From Enterobacter sp. 638 (lineage in GTDB: Bacteria > Pseudomonadota > Gammaproteobacteria > Enterobacterales > Enterobacteriaceae), in assembly GCF_000016325.1 (NCBI RefSeq), contig NC_009436.1:4092001-4156000 (forward strand): 64,000 nucleotides of DNA, given 5' to 3'. Made by a program: the position numbers and the translations under genes. Each line of letters opens with the position of its first letter. Position 1 is the stretch's first letter. Under the pieces are notes generated by a model. It saw only the letters and a list, made by a program, of their open reading frames with translations. It was not told the origin of the DNA and did not search any database. Shown piece by piece: positions 7,964 to 62,669 of the stretch.

Positions 7964-8485
7964 TCAGTTGCTTTCCAGCATATGAATAATCTGGTTTGCA
8001 ACGACTTTTGCGCTCTGATCGTCAGTACGAATCGTTACATCAGCAATTTCTTCGTACAGTGGATTGCGTTCACCAGCCAGGGCTTCAAGAACTTCACGCG
8101 GAGGCGTTTCAACCTGCAGTAACGGGCGCTTTTTATCACGCTGCGTACGTGCGAGTTGTTTCTCGATAGTCGTCTCAAGATAAACCACAACGCCGCGGGC
8201 CGAGAGACGGTTACGCGTTTCACGAGATTTTACAGAGCCGCCGCCAGTCGCCAGCACAATGCCCTGTTTTTCCGTAAGTTCATTGATAACTTTTTCTTCA
8301 CGGTCACGGAAACCTTCTTCACCTTCTACATCGAAGACCCAGCCCACATCAGCTCCGGTTCGTTTCTCAATCTCGTGATCAGAATCGTAAAATTCCATAT
8401 TGAGTTGTTGAGCTAACTGGCGCCCAATAGTGCTTTTGCCGGCACCCATAGGCCCAACCAGAAAGATATTGCGTTTCTCTGCCAT
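7964..8485 (-). CDS. aroK: Shikimate kinase 1 AroK
   Basis: Phosphorylates shikimate with ATP to shikimate-3-phosphate. A P-loop protein of 173 residues, identical in length to E. coli AroK. The Walker A motif GPMGAGKST lies at 11-19. The shikimate-binding DSD/R segments ([17 protein letters not shown]), the GGG of LATGGGSVK and the lid [17 protein letters not shown] are present. It is the first gene of the aroK-aroB-damX-dam-rpe-gph-trpS series. The ~300 bp before it (8486-8782) should hold the promoter. Confidence 0.98.
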
Positions 8486-8782
8486 TTTTTCGGTACTACT
8501 AAGACTATTCGTTAATGGTAATTCCAGCTTCGCGAGTACTCAACGTAGCAGGACATGAACTGAAACCTCATATGCGATAGTGCGAGAGTCAGACTAAAAA
8601 TTATCTCAGTAGTCCTGCTTGTTTGGCAACTGATTAAATCACCATGCCAAATGCTTAGAGCAACAAGAGGTAAGAATAAGAGAAGCTGAATCTCAAATCG
8701 GTACTCCTTGTATGCTAATTCATGCCTCACGTCAAACATCTGCAACAAACTGGGTGCAAAATCCTCGCGGAGATCGTTTCGA
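8486..8782. other. Intergenic region upstream of aroK, no gene recognised
   Basis: About 300 bp between the hofQ stop and the aroK start. An open frame on the minus strand (8512-8796) has no family resemblance and overlaps the end of hofQ, so it is not called. The region is AT-richer than its surroundings and must carry the aroK promoter. I could not fix a -35/-10 pair by eye. Confidence 0.5.
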
Positions 8783-59121: not shown

Positions 59122-59715
59122 ATGACTGAAATCATTTCCGCAGCGGTGCTATTGATCCTGATTATGGATCCACTCGGCAACCTGCCCATCTTTATGTCGG
59201 TGCTGAAACACACTGAACCCAAGCGCCGTCGGGCGATCATGATCCGCGAGCTGCTTATCGCGCTGCTGGTGATGTTTATCTTCCTGTTCGCCGGTGAAAA
59301 AATCCTCGCGTTCCTGAACCTGCGTGCTGAAACGGTTTCAATCTCCGGCGGCATTATTCTGTTTCTGATCGCCATTAAGATGATTTTCCCAAGCGCCGAA
59401 GGCAGCAGCAGCGGCCTGCCTGCGGGTGAAGAGCCGTTTATCGTGCCGCTGGCGATCCCGTTGGTCGCCGGCCCGACGATTCTTGCCACGTTGATGCTGC
59501 TGTCACATCAGTACCCTAATCAGATGAGCCATCTGGTGATCGCCCTGCTGATCGCATGGGGCGGGACGTTTATCATCTTGCTGCAATCGTCGCTGTTCCT
59601 GCGCCTGCTCGGCGAGAAAGGGGTGAACGCGCTGGAGCGCCTGATGGGGTTAATTCTGGTGATGATGGCGACGCAGATGTTCCTGGATGGGATCCGGGCG
59701 TGGATGAAAGGATAG
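59122..59715 (+). CDS. yhgN: MarC-family membrane protein YhgN
   Basis: An inner-membrane protein of the MarC/UPF0056 family with six predicted membrane helices, function unknown. 197 residues, as in E. coli. Signature VLLILIMDPLGNLPIFMSVLK near the N-terminus and PFIVPLAIPLVAGPTILATLMLL in the middle are the internal-repeat motifs of the family. Divergent from asd; followed by two hairpins and then the accessory segment. Confidence 0.95.
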   Translation: MTEIISAAVLLILIMDPLGNLPIFMSVLKHTEPKRRRAIMIRELLIALLVMFIFLFAGEKILAFLNLRAETVSISGGIILFLIAIKMIFPSAEGSSSGLPAGEEPFIVPLAIPLVAGPTILATLMLLSHQYPNQMSHLVIALLIAWGGTFIILLQSSLFLRLLGEKGVNALERLMGLILVMMATQMFLDGIRAWMKG

Positions 59716-59816
59716 GTAAAAGCAAAAGGCAACGTCAGTTGCCTTTTTAGTGTTTGCTCCCTCAAGGTAAAAGCAAAATGGCCACGTCAGTGGTCATTTT
59801 TAGTGTTTGCTCCCTC
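59715..59816. repeat. Tandem hairpin unit after yhgN (two ~51 bp copies)
   Basis: GGTAAAAGCAAAAGGCAACG... at 59715-59763 and GGTAAAAGCAAAATGGCCAC... at 59766-59816. Each has a hairpin, a T tract and TAGTGTTTGCTCCCTC. Copy 1 stem is GGCAAC/GTTGCC. Copy 2 stem is ATGGCCAC/GTGGTCAT, changed on both sides so that pairing (one G-U) is kept. Both can terminate yhgN. Confidence 0.8.
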
Positions 59817-59852
59817 TCCCGTGGGAGAGGGTTGGGGTGAGGGCATCAGCCC
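59811..59852. repeat. REP element after yhgN, inverted orientation
   Basis: CCCTCTCCCGTGGGAGAGGG then TTGGGGTGAGGGCATCAGCC, the reverse complement of the common repeat, directly joined to the hairpin pair. Confidence 0.8.
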
Positions 59853-59955
59853 GCACGATCAGAGTACCCTAACCCCGTAGCCGAGCGGAACATGCGACTC
59901 CGAACCCTGTTCCGTTCACCTTACGAACTCAGTTCCTCTGTTAATACCATAACTG

Positions 59956-60354
59956 GTGAACGTGTTAACGGGGCTATCGCCGCTCCCCCGGCTCCCGGCA
60001 AGAAAATCGCCTCTTCGCGATACCTTCGTCTTATTCCTTACAGCCATCGGGGACGGGCGCTGCAACGTCCCTGTAAATGCGCCCTCGCCGCGCATCCATG
60101 CGCGTCGCCCCTGCCTTCAGTCAACGACTCAGCGATTTACAGCCGGACCAGATCGTCGCTGCCAGATAATGCTTAACTTACTGTCTCCATTGCTGAAGTT
60201 TAATTTCAGTTTCTGCGAGCCGCTTTCCAGAGCCTCTCTTGCCAGCCAATCAGCAAAGCAGTATCTTCTCGCCACGCCTGCAAAATCAGGCGTCGGGATT
60301 AGCCTCCTGAACTACTTCTTCGGTGACACAAGTACTTTTGTGTCGCGCGCTTAG
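59956..60354 (+). CDS. Possible leader protein upstream of the C4-like RNA
   Basis: A 132-codon frame starting with GTG, rich in Arg, Ser, Pro and Leu (LPARKSPLRDTFVLFLTAIG in the middle). The DTFVLFLTAIGDGRC stretch is faintly like leader or Ash-type frames of P4-class phages, but I cannot confirm this. There is no clear ribosome site. It covers the first target box and the inverted repeat, which suggests either a leader peptide or non-coding RNA that happens to be open. A competing frame (59892-60176) overlaps it. Confidence 0.25.
   Translation: MNVLTGLSPLPRLPARKSPLRDTFVLFLTAIGDGRCNVPVNAPSPRIHARRPCLQSTTQRFTAGPDRRCQIMLNLLSPLLKFNFSFCEPLSRASLASQSAKQYLLATPAKSGVGISLLNYFFGDTSTFVSRA
60297..60305 (+). 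promoter_or_regulatory. C4 RNA target box 1
   Basis: GATTAGCCT, followed by CC; seven bases (TTAGCCT) pair perfectly with AGGCTAA of the antisense RNA. It lies ~60 nt before the RNA, in the place of the upstream target of P1/P4 systems. Confidence 0.6.
60325..60344. terminator. Hairpin before the C4-like RNA
   Basis: GACACAA-GTACTT-TTGTGTC, a perfect seven-base stem, between the first target box and the RNA. It may be a processing or attenuation structure of the leader transcript. Confidence 0.5.
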
Positions 60355-60361
60355 CTACACT

Positions 60362-60446
60362 CCAATGGTGGGCCGAGCGGGGGCGTCGCAAGACGCGCCG
60401 GTATCCGAAGAGGCCGGTAAGGCTAACCCTGTTCGGTTCCACCGCC
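60362..60446 (+). ncRNA. C4/CI-type antisense RNA
   Basis: An ~85 nt region with the three-stem fold of phage C4 RNAs. The outer stem pairs TGGTGGGCCGA (60366-60376) with TCGGTTCCACC (60433-60443). An inner hairpin is GCGTC-GCAA-GACGC. Another is CCGG...CCGG around TATCCGAAGAGG. The single-stranded AAGGCTAACC (60419-60428) is complementary to TTAGCCT in both flanking boxes. In P1 and P4 such RNAs pair with the leader and stop expression of the next gene. Family assignment rests on recalled C4 architecture, not on a search. Confidence 0.75.
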
Positions 60447-60451
60447 AGCGA

Positions 60452-60472
60452 GATTAGCCTCTCCAGTGGTGG
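60452..60472 (+). promoter_or_regulatory. C4 RNA target box 2, before the 148-residue gene
   Basis: GATTAGCCT (60452-60460) again, followed by CTCCAGTGGTGG, whose GGTGG also matches the CCACC of the antisense RNA. It lies ~30 nt before the ribosome site of the next gene, so pairing could block its translation or stop transcription. Confidence 0.6.
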
Positions 60473-60500
60473 ATAAAAACAACTCTTTGGAGGCTGTCAT

Positions 60501-60947
60501 ATGACAACGACCCTTAGCTATTCTCATTCTTTATTTACCGTTCCATTCGATAGCAACACCGATTTCACCGAGCTGGCCGACAACTGCGAGCGGTTTGTCG
60601 ACGTGCTGGTTGAATGCGAAGACCCGACACAAAAAATGGCACTGTGCGGACGGCTCTCTGCCTGCCTCGACCTGCTTCAGCCAACGCTGCTGGAACCGGT
60701 GCCTGAACATTTAAAAGCGAGCCTGACGGTCGATGATCTGCCGCTGGACGTGCCAGTCTTCGAGCCGGAAGTGGATCAACTGGGACGGTATTGCCAGCTG
60801 TTAACGCAACTGCTGTTGACTCGTTCGCTGTCGGAAAGTGACGAAAGAGTGGCGGGAGATTTTCTGCAGGATTTGGTCGGGTTTTACAGCGATACGCTAA
60901 AAGCGCCGCGTTGGTTGCGTACTAACGAGGGTGTGGTGCTGATGTAA
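60501..60947 (+). CDS. Small acidic protein of the satellite-phage-like module, function unknown
   Basis: 148 residues, no membrane segment or signal peptide. It is acidic and Leu-rich (CERFVDVLVECEDPTQKMALCGRL; LPLDVPVFEPEVDQL; DFLQDLVGFYSDTL), with a basic C-terminal APRWLRTNEG and three Cys. It reads as a compact helical protein. Strong GGAGG at 60489-60493 lies 7 bp before the ATG, which sits in the palindrome TGTCATATGACA. Its place after a C4-like RNA is that of the small toxic or derepression genes of P4 (kil, orf151, epsilon) or P1 (icd). I recall similar proteins in P4-type satellites but cannot name the family; a host-directed or regulatory role is inference. Confidence 0.8.
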   Translation: MTTTLSYSHSLFTVPFDSNTDFTELADNCERFVDVLVECEDPTQKMALCGRLSACLDLLQPTLLEPVPEHLKASLTVDDLPLDVPVFEPEVDQLGRYCQLLTQLLLTRSLSESDERVAGDFLQDLVGFYSDTLKAPRWLRTNEGVVLM

Positions 60948-60959
60948 AAAGAGGGATTT

Positions 60960-61320
60960 TGCGGTTTGATGCCCTCACCCCAGCCCTCTCCCACAGGAGA
61001 GGGAGAACACATTAAAAACGACAACTCTTGTTGTCGTTTTGCTTTGAGATTGTGCGGTTTGATGCCCCCGGACCGTACACCCGTGGGGAGAGTGAGAAAA
61101 CACTAAAAACGACAACTCTTGTTGTCGTTTTTCTTTGAGCTTGTGCGGCCTGGTGCCCTCACCCCGCCCTCTCCCACAGGAGAGGGAGAACACATTAAAA
61201 ACGACAACTGTTGTTGTCGTTTTACTTTGAGCTTGTGCGGCCTGATGCCCTCACCTCAGCCCTCTGCCACAGGGAGAGGGCGAGAAATTTAAAAAGGCAA
61301 CTGACGTTGCCTTTTGCTTT
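60960..61320. repeat. Array of four ~92 bp REP-plus-hairpin units
   Basis: Units start at 60960, 61053, 61144 and 61236 (spacing 93, 91, 92). Each reads TGCGG(T/C)(T/C)TGATGCCCTCACC, a CTCTCCC/GGGAGAG palindrome, an A-rich spacer and a hairpin with T tract. Units 1-3 carry the hairpin CGACAACTCTTGTTGTCG or a near match. Unit 4 carries GGCAACTGACGTTGCC, the type seen elsewhere in the window. In unit 2 the REP half has drifted (CCCCCGGACCGTACACCCGTGGGGAG). The hairpins can terminate both the upstream phage-like gene and convergent gntU. Confidence 0.88.
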
Positions 61321-61328
61321 TACCTTGT

Positions 61329-62669
61329 CTAGCTCAACAGCGTAAACGCAATCATCCCGACAATCGCACCTGTTGTGCCGAGGATGGTTTCCATCAGCGT
61401 CCAGGTTTTCAGGGTTTGCGCTTCGGTCGCACCGGTAAATTTACCGAACAGCCAGAAGCCTGCGTCGTTGACGTGGGAGACCACAATCGAACCGCCCGCG
61501 ATACAGATAGACAGTGCTGCCATCTGCGCGCCGGAGTAGTTCAGCTGTTCAATCACCGGCATCACCAGGCCCACAGCAGTCAGACACGCCACGGTTGCGG
61601 AGCCCTGGATAATGCGCACCGCGGCCGCCAGCACGAAGCACGTCACGGCGATCGGCAAGCCCATCCCGGTCAGCGCTTCGCCCAGTGCGGGACCCACACC
61701 GGAATCTACCAGCACCTGCTTGAACACGCCGCCTGCACCGATCACCAGCAGAATGATACCCGCTGGCTGTAGCGCAGCACCGCAAATCTCCATGACTCTG
61801 TCTTTCGGCATGCCCTGACGTATCGCCAGGCCGTAAATCGCCACCAGACACGCCACCAGGATCGCGGTAAACGGATGGCCAATAAACTCGAACCATTCGT
61901 AGGTGCTGGAACCGACCGGCACAAAGCGTGCGGCGATGGTTTTCAGACCGACCAACACCAGCGGCAGCAGGATCAGCGCCAGGCTAAACCCGAAGGAAGG
62001 CATTTTGCCTTCGCCAAGGTGCGGCTCGGTGATGTCGTCAGGGATGTGCAACTCAACGTAGCGACTGATGAAATTGCCCCACAGCGGCCCGGCGATAATC
62101 ATCCCCGGAATTGCGGCGCAAAGACCAATCAGGATCATCCAGCCAAAATCAGCGTGCATCTGGGATGCCAGGAGCATCGGCGCGGGCCCTGGCAGCAGGA
62201 ACGCCGCCGCGGCCGCAACGCCCGCAAACAGCGGGATCACCAGCTTCACGAGGTTGGTTCCGGTATGACGCGCCATCGAGAACGCCACGCTAATCAGCAG
62301 CACCACGGCCACTTCAAAGAACAGCGGCAGCGCGCAAATCAGACCGGCCAGACCAATCGCATAATGCGCGCGGCTGTGACCGAAGGATTTGAGCATCTTG
62401 ACCGCAATCTGATCGACCGCGCCCGTTTCATGCAAAATCTTGCCAAACATCGCGCCGAGCGCGACCACAATCGCCAGGAAACCCAGCGTGCCTCCCATCC
62501 CTTTTTCCATGGTCGCTGCGATTTTGTCGAGCGGCATTCCAGAAAAGAGACCTGCGCCAATAGAAACCACCATCAAAGCAACAAAGGCGTGCATACGCGC
62601 TTTCATCACTAAAAACAGCAGCAGCAAAACGGAGCCGACTGCTGTCAAAACTAACGTTAATGTACTCAA
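61329..62669 (-). CDS. gntU: Low-affinity gluconate transporter GntU
   Basis: An inner-membrane permease of the GntP family. 446 residues, with 12-14 hydrophobic segments. Signatures: ICALPLFFEVAVVLLISVAF, LFAGVAAAAAFLLPGPAPMLLA, GIILLVIGAGGVFKQVLVDSG and GGSIVVSHVNDAGFWLFGKF, parallel to those of GntT at 35-36 kb. It starts 3 bp after gntK ends, so it is co-transcribed. In E. coli this pair gives low-affinity uptake plus kinase. Confidence 0.97.
   Translation of the reverse strand: MSTLTLVLTAVGSVLLLLFLVMKARMHAFVALMVVSIGAGLFSGMPLDKIAATMEKGMGGTLGFLAIVVALGAMFGKILHETGAVDQIAVKMLKSFGHSRAHYAIGLAGLICALPLFFEVAVVLLISVAFSMARHTGTNLVKLVIPLFAGVAAAAAFLLPGPAPMLLASQMHADFGWMILIGLCAAIPGMIIAGPLWGNFISRYVELHIPDDITEPHLGEGKMPSFGFSLALILLPLVLVGLKTIAARFVPVGSSTYEWFEFIGHPFTAILVACLVAIYGLAIRQGMPKDRVMEICGAALQPAGIILLVIGAGGVFKQVLVDSGVGPALGEALTGMGLPIAVTCFVLAAAVRIIQGSATVACLTAVGLVMPVIEQLNYSGAQMAALSICIAGGSIVVSHVNDAGFWLFGKFTGATEAQTLKTWTLMETILGTTGAIVGMIAFTLLS

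Follow-up and report, generated by a model that had tools for sequence, protein, structure and literature searches.

Between yhgN and gntU, the chromosome of Enterobacter sp. 638 carries a compact cassette in which an antisense RNA of the C4 type, flanked by its own target boxes, precedes a gene for a small protein of 148 residues (ORF148). This cassette probably acts as a self-contained C4-type antisense switch, solitary in the chromosome, that represses ORF148. The window analyzed here is a stretch of 64,000 nucleotides of contig NC_009436.1 (positions 4,092,001 to 4,156,000), in which positions are counted from the first letter. In E. coli K-12, yhgN and gntU are separated by only 56 bp and no insert, so that about 1.6 kb of the interval is extra in the window. 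As the first-pass annotation had claimed, the RNA stands there without the rest of a phage: the interval contains ORF148 and short frames only, and neither an integrase nor a P4-type primase lies beside the RNA, whose neighbors are yhgN and gntU. Four of five interval frames have no Pfam match and the fifth (Phage_ASH) scores below the cut-off. The fold of the RNA, the matches of its loops to their targets and the co-variation of both, the selection acting on ORF148, the solitary placement and the exchange of RNA blocks between copies are read directly from the compared sequences. The parts of the locus are the following.

59122-59715, plus strand: yhgN (NCBIfam equivalog)
60203-60950, plus strand: stretch conserved between genomes at yhgN-gntU (blastn against the same interval in relatives)
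60239-60267, plus strand: promoter-like site TTGCCA-17-TATCTT, putative in function, the only promoter-like match in 59700-61330
60274-60341, plus strand: isrK-like leader RNA (Rfam isrK, RF01394, 45.7 bits, below the cut-off of 50)
60299-60305, plus strand: target box a1 (TTAGCCT), within a hairpin, complement of loop I
60317-60323, plus strand: target box b1 (TCTTCGG), in the leader, 7 nt of Watson-Crick complementarity with loop II
60361-60449, plus strand: C4 antisense RNA (RF01695, 68.2 bits)
60404-60412, plus strand: C4 loop II (b'), UCCGAAGAG, apical loop of the second hairpin (Rfam consensus), predicted to pair with b1 and b2, changing with them across loci
60420-60426, plus strand: C4 loop I (a'), AGGCUAA, unpaired in the Rfam consensus and the minimum-energy fold, predicted to pair with a1 and a2, changing with them across loci
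60454-60460, plus strand: target box a2 (TTAGCCT), complement of loop I, beginning 5 nt past the C4 RNA
60483-60491, plus strand: target box b2 (CTCTTTGGA), matching loop II over 9 nt including one G-U and extending into the Shine-Dalgarno-like GGAGG (60489-60493)
60501-60947, plus strand: ORF148, encoding a small 148-aa protein predicted to form a helical bundle and, at its C-terminus, a beta hairpin
61329-62669, minus strand: gntU (95% identity to the annotated K-12 gene)

C4 RNAs are known parts of phage immunity systems. A C4-type RNA of about 85 nt with three stems had been proposed for this interval from the letters alone, and it is recovered by Infernal with the Rfam C4 model: the match at 60361-60449 (E 4e-11) exceeds the gathering cut-off of 45 bits and is the sole Rfam gathering match in the entire window. 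The predicted fold has the three stems of the family, with an energy of -47.8 kcal/mol (z -3.96) that none of 200 shuffles equalled. Across 29 C4 loci representing 28 distinct sequences, both sides have changed in 14 of the 26 stem pairs and 98.8% of cells are paired. A GGT at 60367-60369 agrees with the GGW motif described in a passage of PMC5320573, and the RNA may be processed by RNase P. The leader at 60274-60360 is also predicted to be structured (-31.1 kcal/mol, z -3.47, equalled by one of 200 shuffles). It resembles the isrK RNA of the Gifsy-1 locus, yet stays below the family cut-off as given above, and the c4-a1b1 family (RF03163) scores 39.8 bits at the a1 leader, below its cut-off of 46.7. 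A 44-codon frame running over the C4 RNA (60323-60457) gives the Phage_ASH score (Pfam, 24.2 bits against a cut-off of 26), and an 'ash family protein' is annotated at the equivalent position in E. coli records. This frame is possibly the C4 RNA read as a protein.

The window holds a complete C4 antisense-target module, since across the compared loci each of the two loops fits the targets beside it much more closely than those of other loci. Loop I has 7 nt of complementarity to each of a1 and a2. The two TTAGCCT boxes that had been noticed around a single-stranded AGGCTAA are real, and the alignment of 39 C4 loci revealed a second pair, loop II with b1 and b2, that was absent from the earlier reading. 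Both loops vary between these loci, and the boxes vary along with them. Over distinct loops (12 loop I and 21 loop II sequences), the match to the own target averages 7.2 nt downstream and 7.1 nt upstream for loop I, and 8.3 and 8.0 nt for loop II, against means of 4.6-4.9 nt with the targets of other loci. In each of the four tests, the own-target sum was reached in 0 of 20,000 permutations over the 39 loci. Loop I has at least 7 nt in 37/39 loci downstream (the misses are L014 and L003) and in 38/39 upstream (the miss is P4). The downstream match of loop II reaches at least 7 nt of Watson-Crick pairs in 31/39 loci, and in two of the passing loci (L022 and L030) it lies away from the usual position. 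The window is among the eight that miss: its loop II-b2 match includes the one G-U, and b2 was not selected by the scan for Watson-Crick pairs only. A second set comprised 41 C4s from seven genomes, 40 newly fetched and one being the yhgN-site copy of G022; 37 are new relative to the 39-locus test and four yhgN-site copies are common to both. There, loop I matches its own downstream target over at least 7 nt in 40/41, and both loops do so in 30/41. The eight loop II misses and the 11/41 that fail the two-loop test count against the proposed two-loop switch. The switch may also be more complex than simple pairing suggests, because the minimum-energy fold adds two pairs inside loop II and the Shine-Dalgarno region of the window can alternatively pair with the a2 region (z -1.43, equalled by 17 of 200 shuffles).

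The protein encoded by ORF148 has no match in Pfam, PHROG, NCBIfam or PADLOC families up to E 1, and its structure model has a mean pLDDT of 87.2. A profile search returned 912 proteins at E 0.001. Among named sequences, its best matches are proteins of Lelliottia amnigena (97% identity). Outside chromosomes it is rare, with matches in one of 50,697 deposited phage records (tblastn) and in seven of 72,556 plasmid records. At the yhgN site, the median dN/dS is 0.146 (range 0.054-0.278; 105 pairs among 15 copies), and at six other solitary sites the ratio is 0.00-0.23, the zero coming from one near-identical pair; yhgN itself gives 0.011. These ratios indicate that ORF148 is under purifying selection. 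As a guess, it could have been inherited from satellite islands as a regulator or as an effector of mild, toxin-like action.

In the proposed mechanism, the promoter at 60239-60267 would give rise to a single transcript comprising a1/b1, the C4 RNA, a2/b2 and ORF148. The C4 RNA would be released from it, presumably by RNase P, and its loop I would pair with a2 and its loop II with b2. Since the loop II-b2 pairing would cover the Shine-Dalgarno sequence of ORF148, the gene would be silent except when C4 is scarce. The nascent transcript may in addition be halted or titrated through pairing with a1/b1. We infer that the cassette is transcribed, that RNase P processes the RNA and that ORF148 is repressed, and any benefit to the cell is likewise inferred. 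Of the functions suggested in the first-pass annotation, that of an off-switch for the next protein agrees best with the data: loop II can pair with the ribosome-binding region of ORF148, and the two vary together from locus to locus. The promoter match is no evidence alone, as shuffles of 59700-61330 yield 0.6 such matches on average (sd 0.9), and being no better than chance it weighs against the scheme; a similar sequence is found at the same place in most of the yhgN-site copies compared.

This layout has precedents. In the c4 system of P1/P7, as described in passages of PMC5320573, the same fold presents loops a' and b', the latter directed at a ribosome-binding site. The window C4 differs in the gene after it, ORF148 in place of an antirepressor, in its solitary chromosomal position, and in the many copies with differing loops that the genus contains. 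The c4 system is reviewed in PMC12197685, isrK is described in PMC4825925, and C4 and c4-a1b1 are listed in PMC2864571, each as far as the consulted portions of these sources go. In the CI RNA region of satellite P4, a model built here finds a C4 RNA in X51522 at 8420-8507 on the minus strand (76.7 bits). Its loops I and II match boxes downstream, as in the window. P4 differs by an Icd-like protein after the C4 RNA (NF033153, 76.1 bits), by other loops and by the presence of the full satellite. The tested P4 stretch has no matching a1 or b1, a further point against the proposed scheme. Passages of PMC5320573 also describe many C4-like RNAs (Group 1) with a variable loop region in each Acinetobacter baumannii chromosome, for which phages or host mRNAs were proposed as targets. 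Multiple copies and a variable loop are common to both cases, whereas here each C4 matches its adjacent gene.

The yhgN-gntU interval was surveyed in 61 genomes, of which 46 had a readable interval, the window included, and 15 had gntU outside the fetched stretch. An ORF148 match was found in 21 of the 46 and a C4 RNA in 15; 25 have no ORF148 match. Sixteen yhgN-site copies are open over at least 146 codons. In two copies (L087 and L094) an in-register ATG was not found by the script, and L105 has an altered ORF148 end. Most full copies align by blastn from about 60203-60211 to about 60950, some extending upstream. The 15 yhgN-gntU copies in the protein tree form one clade (98/98), which is explained most simply by a single insertion here. 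The cassette is found in either orientation, reversed in L087, L103, L120, L129 and L131 and in the remnant L132; recombination between inverted REP-like repeats could have flipped it. Further insertions have occurred in the interval, which contains transposase-like frames in L112 (read by eye) and reaches 6.0 kb in L105 and 8.7 kb in L134. C4 RNA and gene do not always go together. Two copies (L079 and L097) keep the C4 RNA with a truncated ORF148, and three (L112, L128 and L137) have lost the C4 RNA and one box while ORF148 remains open. Both combinations speak against the antisense switch, and the latter implies that control by C4 is not strictly required.

The same survey bears on the possibility that C4 RNA and ORF148 form an RNA-antitoxin/toxin pair, a harmful ORF148 and its antitoxin keeping the cassette in the chromosome. 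Other C4 modules do precede such genes, namely the Icd-like division inhibitor in P4 and a homologue of the SymE toxin in two IMG/VR contigs, L242 (PF08845, 64.5 bits) and L247 (by eye), where the C4 carries the loop I of the window and the homologue takes the place of ORF148. A toxin pair is nevertheless rather unlikely: the C4-less copies with an open ORF148, present in three genomes, argue against strong toxicity, more than half of the readable intervals lack the gene, and ORF148 matches no toxin family. The variety of genes fits with C4 being a portable off-switch with exchangeable cargo (Icd-like protein, SymE homologue or ORF148), which leaves room for a growth effect of ORF148.

The loops themselves have been exchanged at the yhgN site. 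Two versions of leader and C4 RNA exist there, with loop I AGGCTAA or GGACCAA, and each forms one clade in the leader and C4 tree (96/96 and 100/100). On the ORF148 tree, in which three C4-less copies were typed from their single remaining box, loop I type changes at least six times, three of the changes being forced by well-supported branches. Loop I type is not clustered on this tree, since the number of changes was no higher in 441 or 445 of 500 draws with shuffled type labels. Identities were compared in nine pairs chosen among 11 yhgN-site copies. Between L120 and L129, the promoter is 87% identical and the ORF 89-95%, with only 70-72% in the RNA block between them, and between the window and L080 successive stretches are 92%, then 72-82%, then 82-89% identical. 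The pair L120 and L117 shows the reverse pattern, 96-100% in the RNA block against 77-93% in the ORF and 34% in the promoter stretch. The transcribed RNA block has been exchanged whole, with its loops and boxes, between copies whose promoters and ORFs are alike. Such swaps at one locus raise the question whether selection favors a new address, and if so which selection.

Repeated switching of loop I type is one point in favor of a domesticated superinfection immunity device, in which the C4 of the chromosome would act in trans to silence an arriving satellite or island that has the same a2/b2. In P1/P7, C4 acts in this way according to the consulted parts of PMC5320573 and PMC12197685, and loop I AGGCTAA is common to the E. 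coli island L035 and to L242 and L247. These three have other loop II sequences, though, and the exact pattern of both window boxes occurs in no viral contig searched. P4 and the P4-like satellite resident in the same genome carry other loops and boxes, and the cassette retains a target gene that is under selection, although immunity by itself would not call for one. Protection against related satellites, as suggested initially, is so far unsupported and remains unlikely in comparison with an antisense switch acting on the adjacent ORF148.

That switch belongs to a dispersed family. C4 matches were found in 56 of the 61 genus genomes examined, with one to ten in each, and in none of 14 control genomes; the reading of the locus as a lone oddity was rejected on this count, and the stand-alone phage RNA, which the initial description called unusual, has many solitary counterparts in the genus. 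By tblastn, ORF148 has matches in 36 of 60 genomes including that of the window, all 36 being of the genus and many having several. A count over E. coli genomes (4,993/5,426) was set aside because its query contained REP-like repeats. Solitary C4-ORF148 cassettes occupy about ten chromosomal sites, and common flanks sort them into several of these, for example beside glyS or beside mtn-like genes (names read from sequence). In the genome of the window, a solitary C4 with a distant ORF148 relative and other loops lies at about 1.205 Mb of C2 (L209), and the C4 of the resident P4-like satellite, which has a P4-type primase and other loops, at about 3.381 Mb (L210).

Islands of E. coli and Enterobacter (L035, L036, L037, L039 and L159) also have a C4 RNA followed by ORF148, and the order of parts is the same in islands and at solitary sites, and in P4 too except for a1. 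The islands differ from the solitary copies by an HTH gene and two integrase genes, and three of the five (L037, L039 and L159) lie beside a tRNA gene. In the four E. coli islands L035, L036, L037 and L039, an EFASI RNA (RF02957) lies just 5' of an integrase-domain gene. Twenty further ORF148 copies were searched with the proteins of three E. coli islands and with ARAGORN. The HTH and integrase proteins and tRNA genes were found only near L159, and the other 19 copies and L046-L048 have neither, the surroundings of L142 being limited to a 4.5 kb contig. By eye, genes resembling those of restriction-modification systems and a tRNA-like stretch adjoin L141, and transposase-like frames lie close to L152. 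When the protein tree is rooted with a distant ORF148 subfamily, 37 solitary copies from the Enterobacter group, Kosakonia and Citrobacter form one clade (100/100); the five island copies fall outside it and the solitary E. coli copy L038 is next to it (85/82).

Loss is common, as judged from the counts at the glyS site. Among 20 genomes, eight have an ORF148 match there, three of them full length in one piece and the others (L163, L164, L165, L167 and L176) partial or broken. Tiny remnants were seen by eye in three (L170, L171 and L174), six have an empty gap of 20 bp and three were not resolved. Together with the yhgN-gntU remnants L103, L132 and L133 and the many intervals empty of ORF148, this would suit a decaying, non-functional relic of a satellite or island. 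Such a relic is quite improbable given the dN/dS of 0.05-0.28 at yhgN-gntU, the loop-target co-variation and the single well-supported clade of solitary copies. No clean target-site duplication could be made out at either yhgN-gntU or glyS, both of which are crowded with repeats.

Co-resident cassettes were compared in seven genomes, with 8 of 10 C4s used in G079, 7/9 in G069, 6/7 in each of G022, G084 and G083, and 4/7 in each of G063 and G062. None of the 212 ordered pairs within genomes matches via both loops at 7 nt or more and 26 match via loop I, against 30 of 1,428 between-genome pairs that match via both. The difference is suggestive only, because orthologous sites are among the between-genome pairs, and because G083 and G084 have five C4s that are nearly identical. 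The two loops may thus form a private address: the compared cassettes of one chromosome have a different sequence in one loop or both, and could therefore be regulated separately. It is conceivable, if short of probable, that Enterobacter-group chromosomes hold dispersed solitary C4-ORF148 loci at fixed sites, each with a private two-loop address free of cross-reaction within the genome, and that the address is changed by replacement of the whole RNA block while promoter and gene are kept. If so, they would form a multi-locus RNA-addressed system for regulation or incompatibility, free of its satellite ancestors and either maintained by the host or spreading as an independent minimal element. 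From the two-loop rule one can predict which cassettes would cross-talk, and natural variants thereby allow a direct test of antisense specificity. It is highly improbable that the C4 RNA is redirected in trans to other host mRNAs, as proposed for the multi-copy A. baumannii Group 1 RNAs in passages of PMC5320573, since the loops track their own cis targets and an exact two-box search of the genome outside the cassette gave one mismatch-free match (C2:3904524-3904560).

The C4 module paired with ORF148 is detached from phages, multi-copy in most genus genomes examined and matched to a conserved uncharacterized protein family. Multi-copy C4-like RNAs were already known from A. baumannii; the dispersed solitary C4-ORF148 family with matched, apparently separate addresses is a novel variation on this known type. 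No description of solitary C4-ORF cassettes in Enterobacterales was found in the titles and abstract openings of the papers that searches of an openly licensed PubMed Central library brought up.

The flanks of the cassettes are rich in repeats. Inverted REP-like repeats and terminator-like hairpins cluster on both sides of the window cassette, at 59724-59860 and 60960-61320. A repeat of about 320 bp at 59884-60207, with weak likeness to TwoAYGGAY on the minus strand (30.2 bits against a cut-off of 43), is found immediately upstream of solitary cassettes at several sites and also alone, in either orientation. The left end of many solitary cassettes carries a GCGAGGCGGCTTCC-like motif, which is inverted in L155 and L158 and, less clearly, in L157, where it lies upstream of the leader hairpin.
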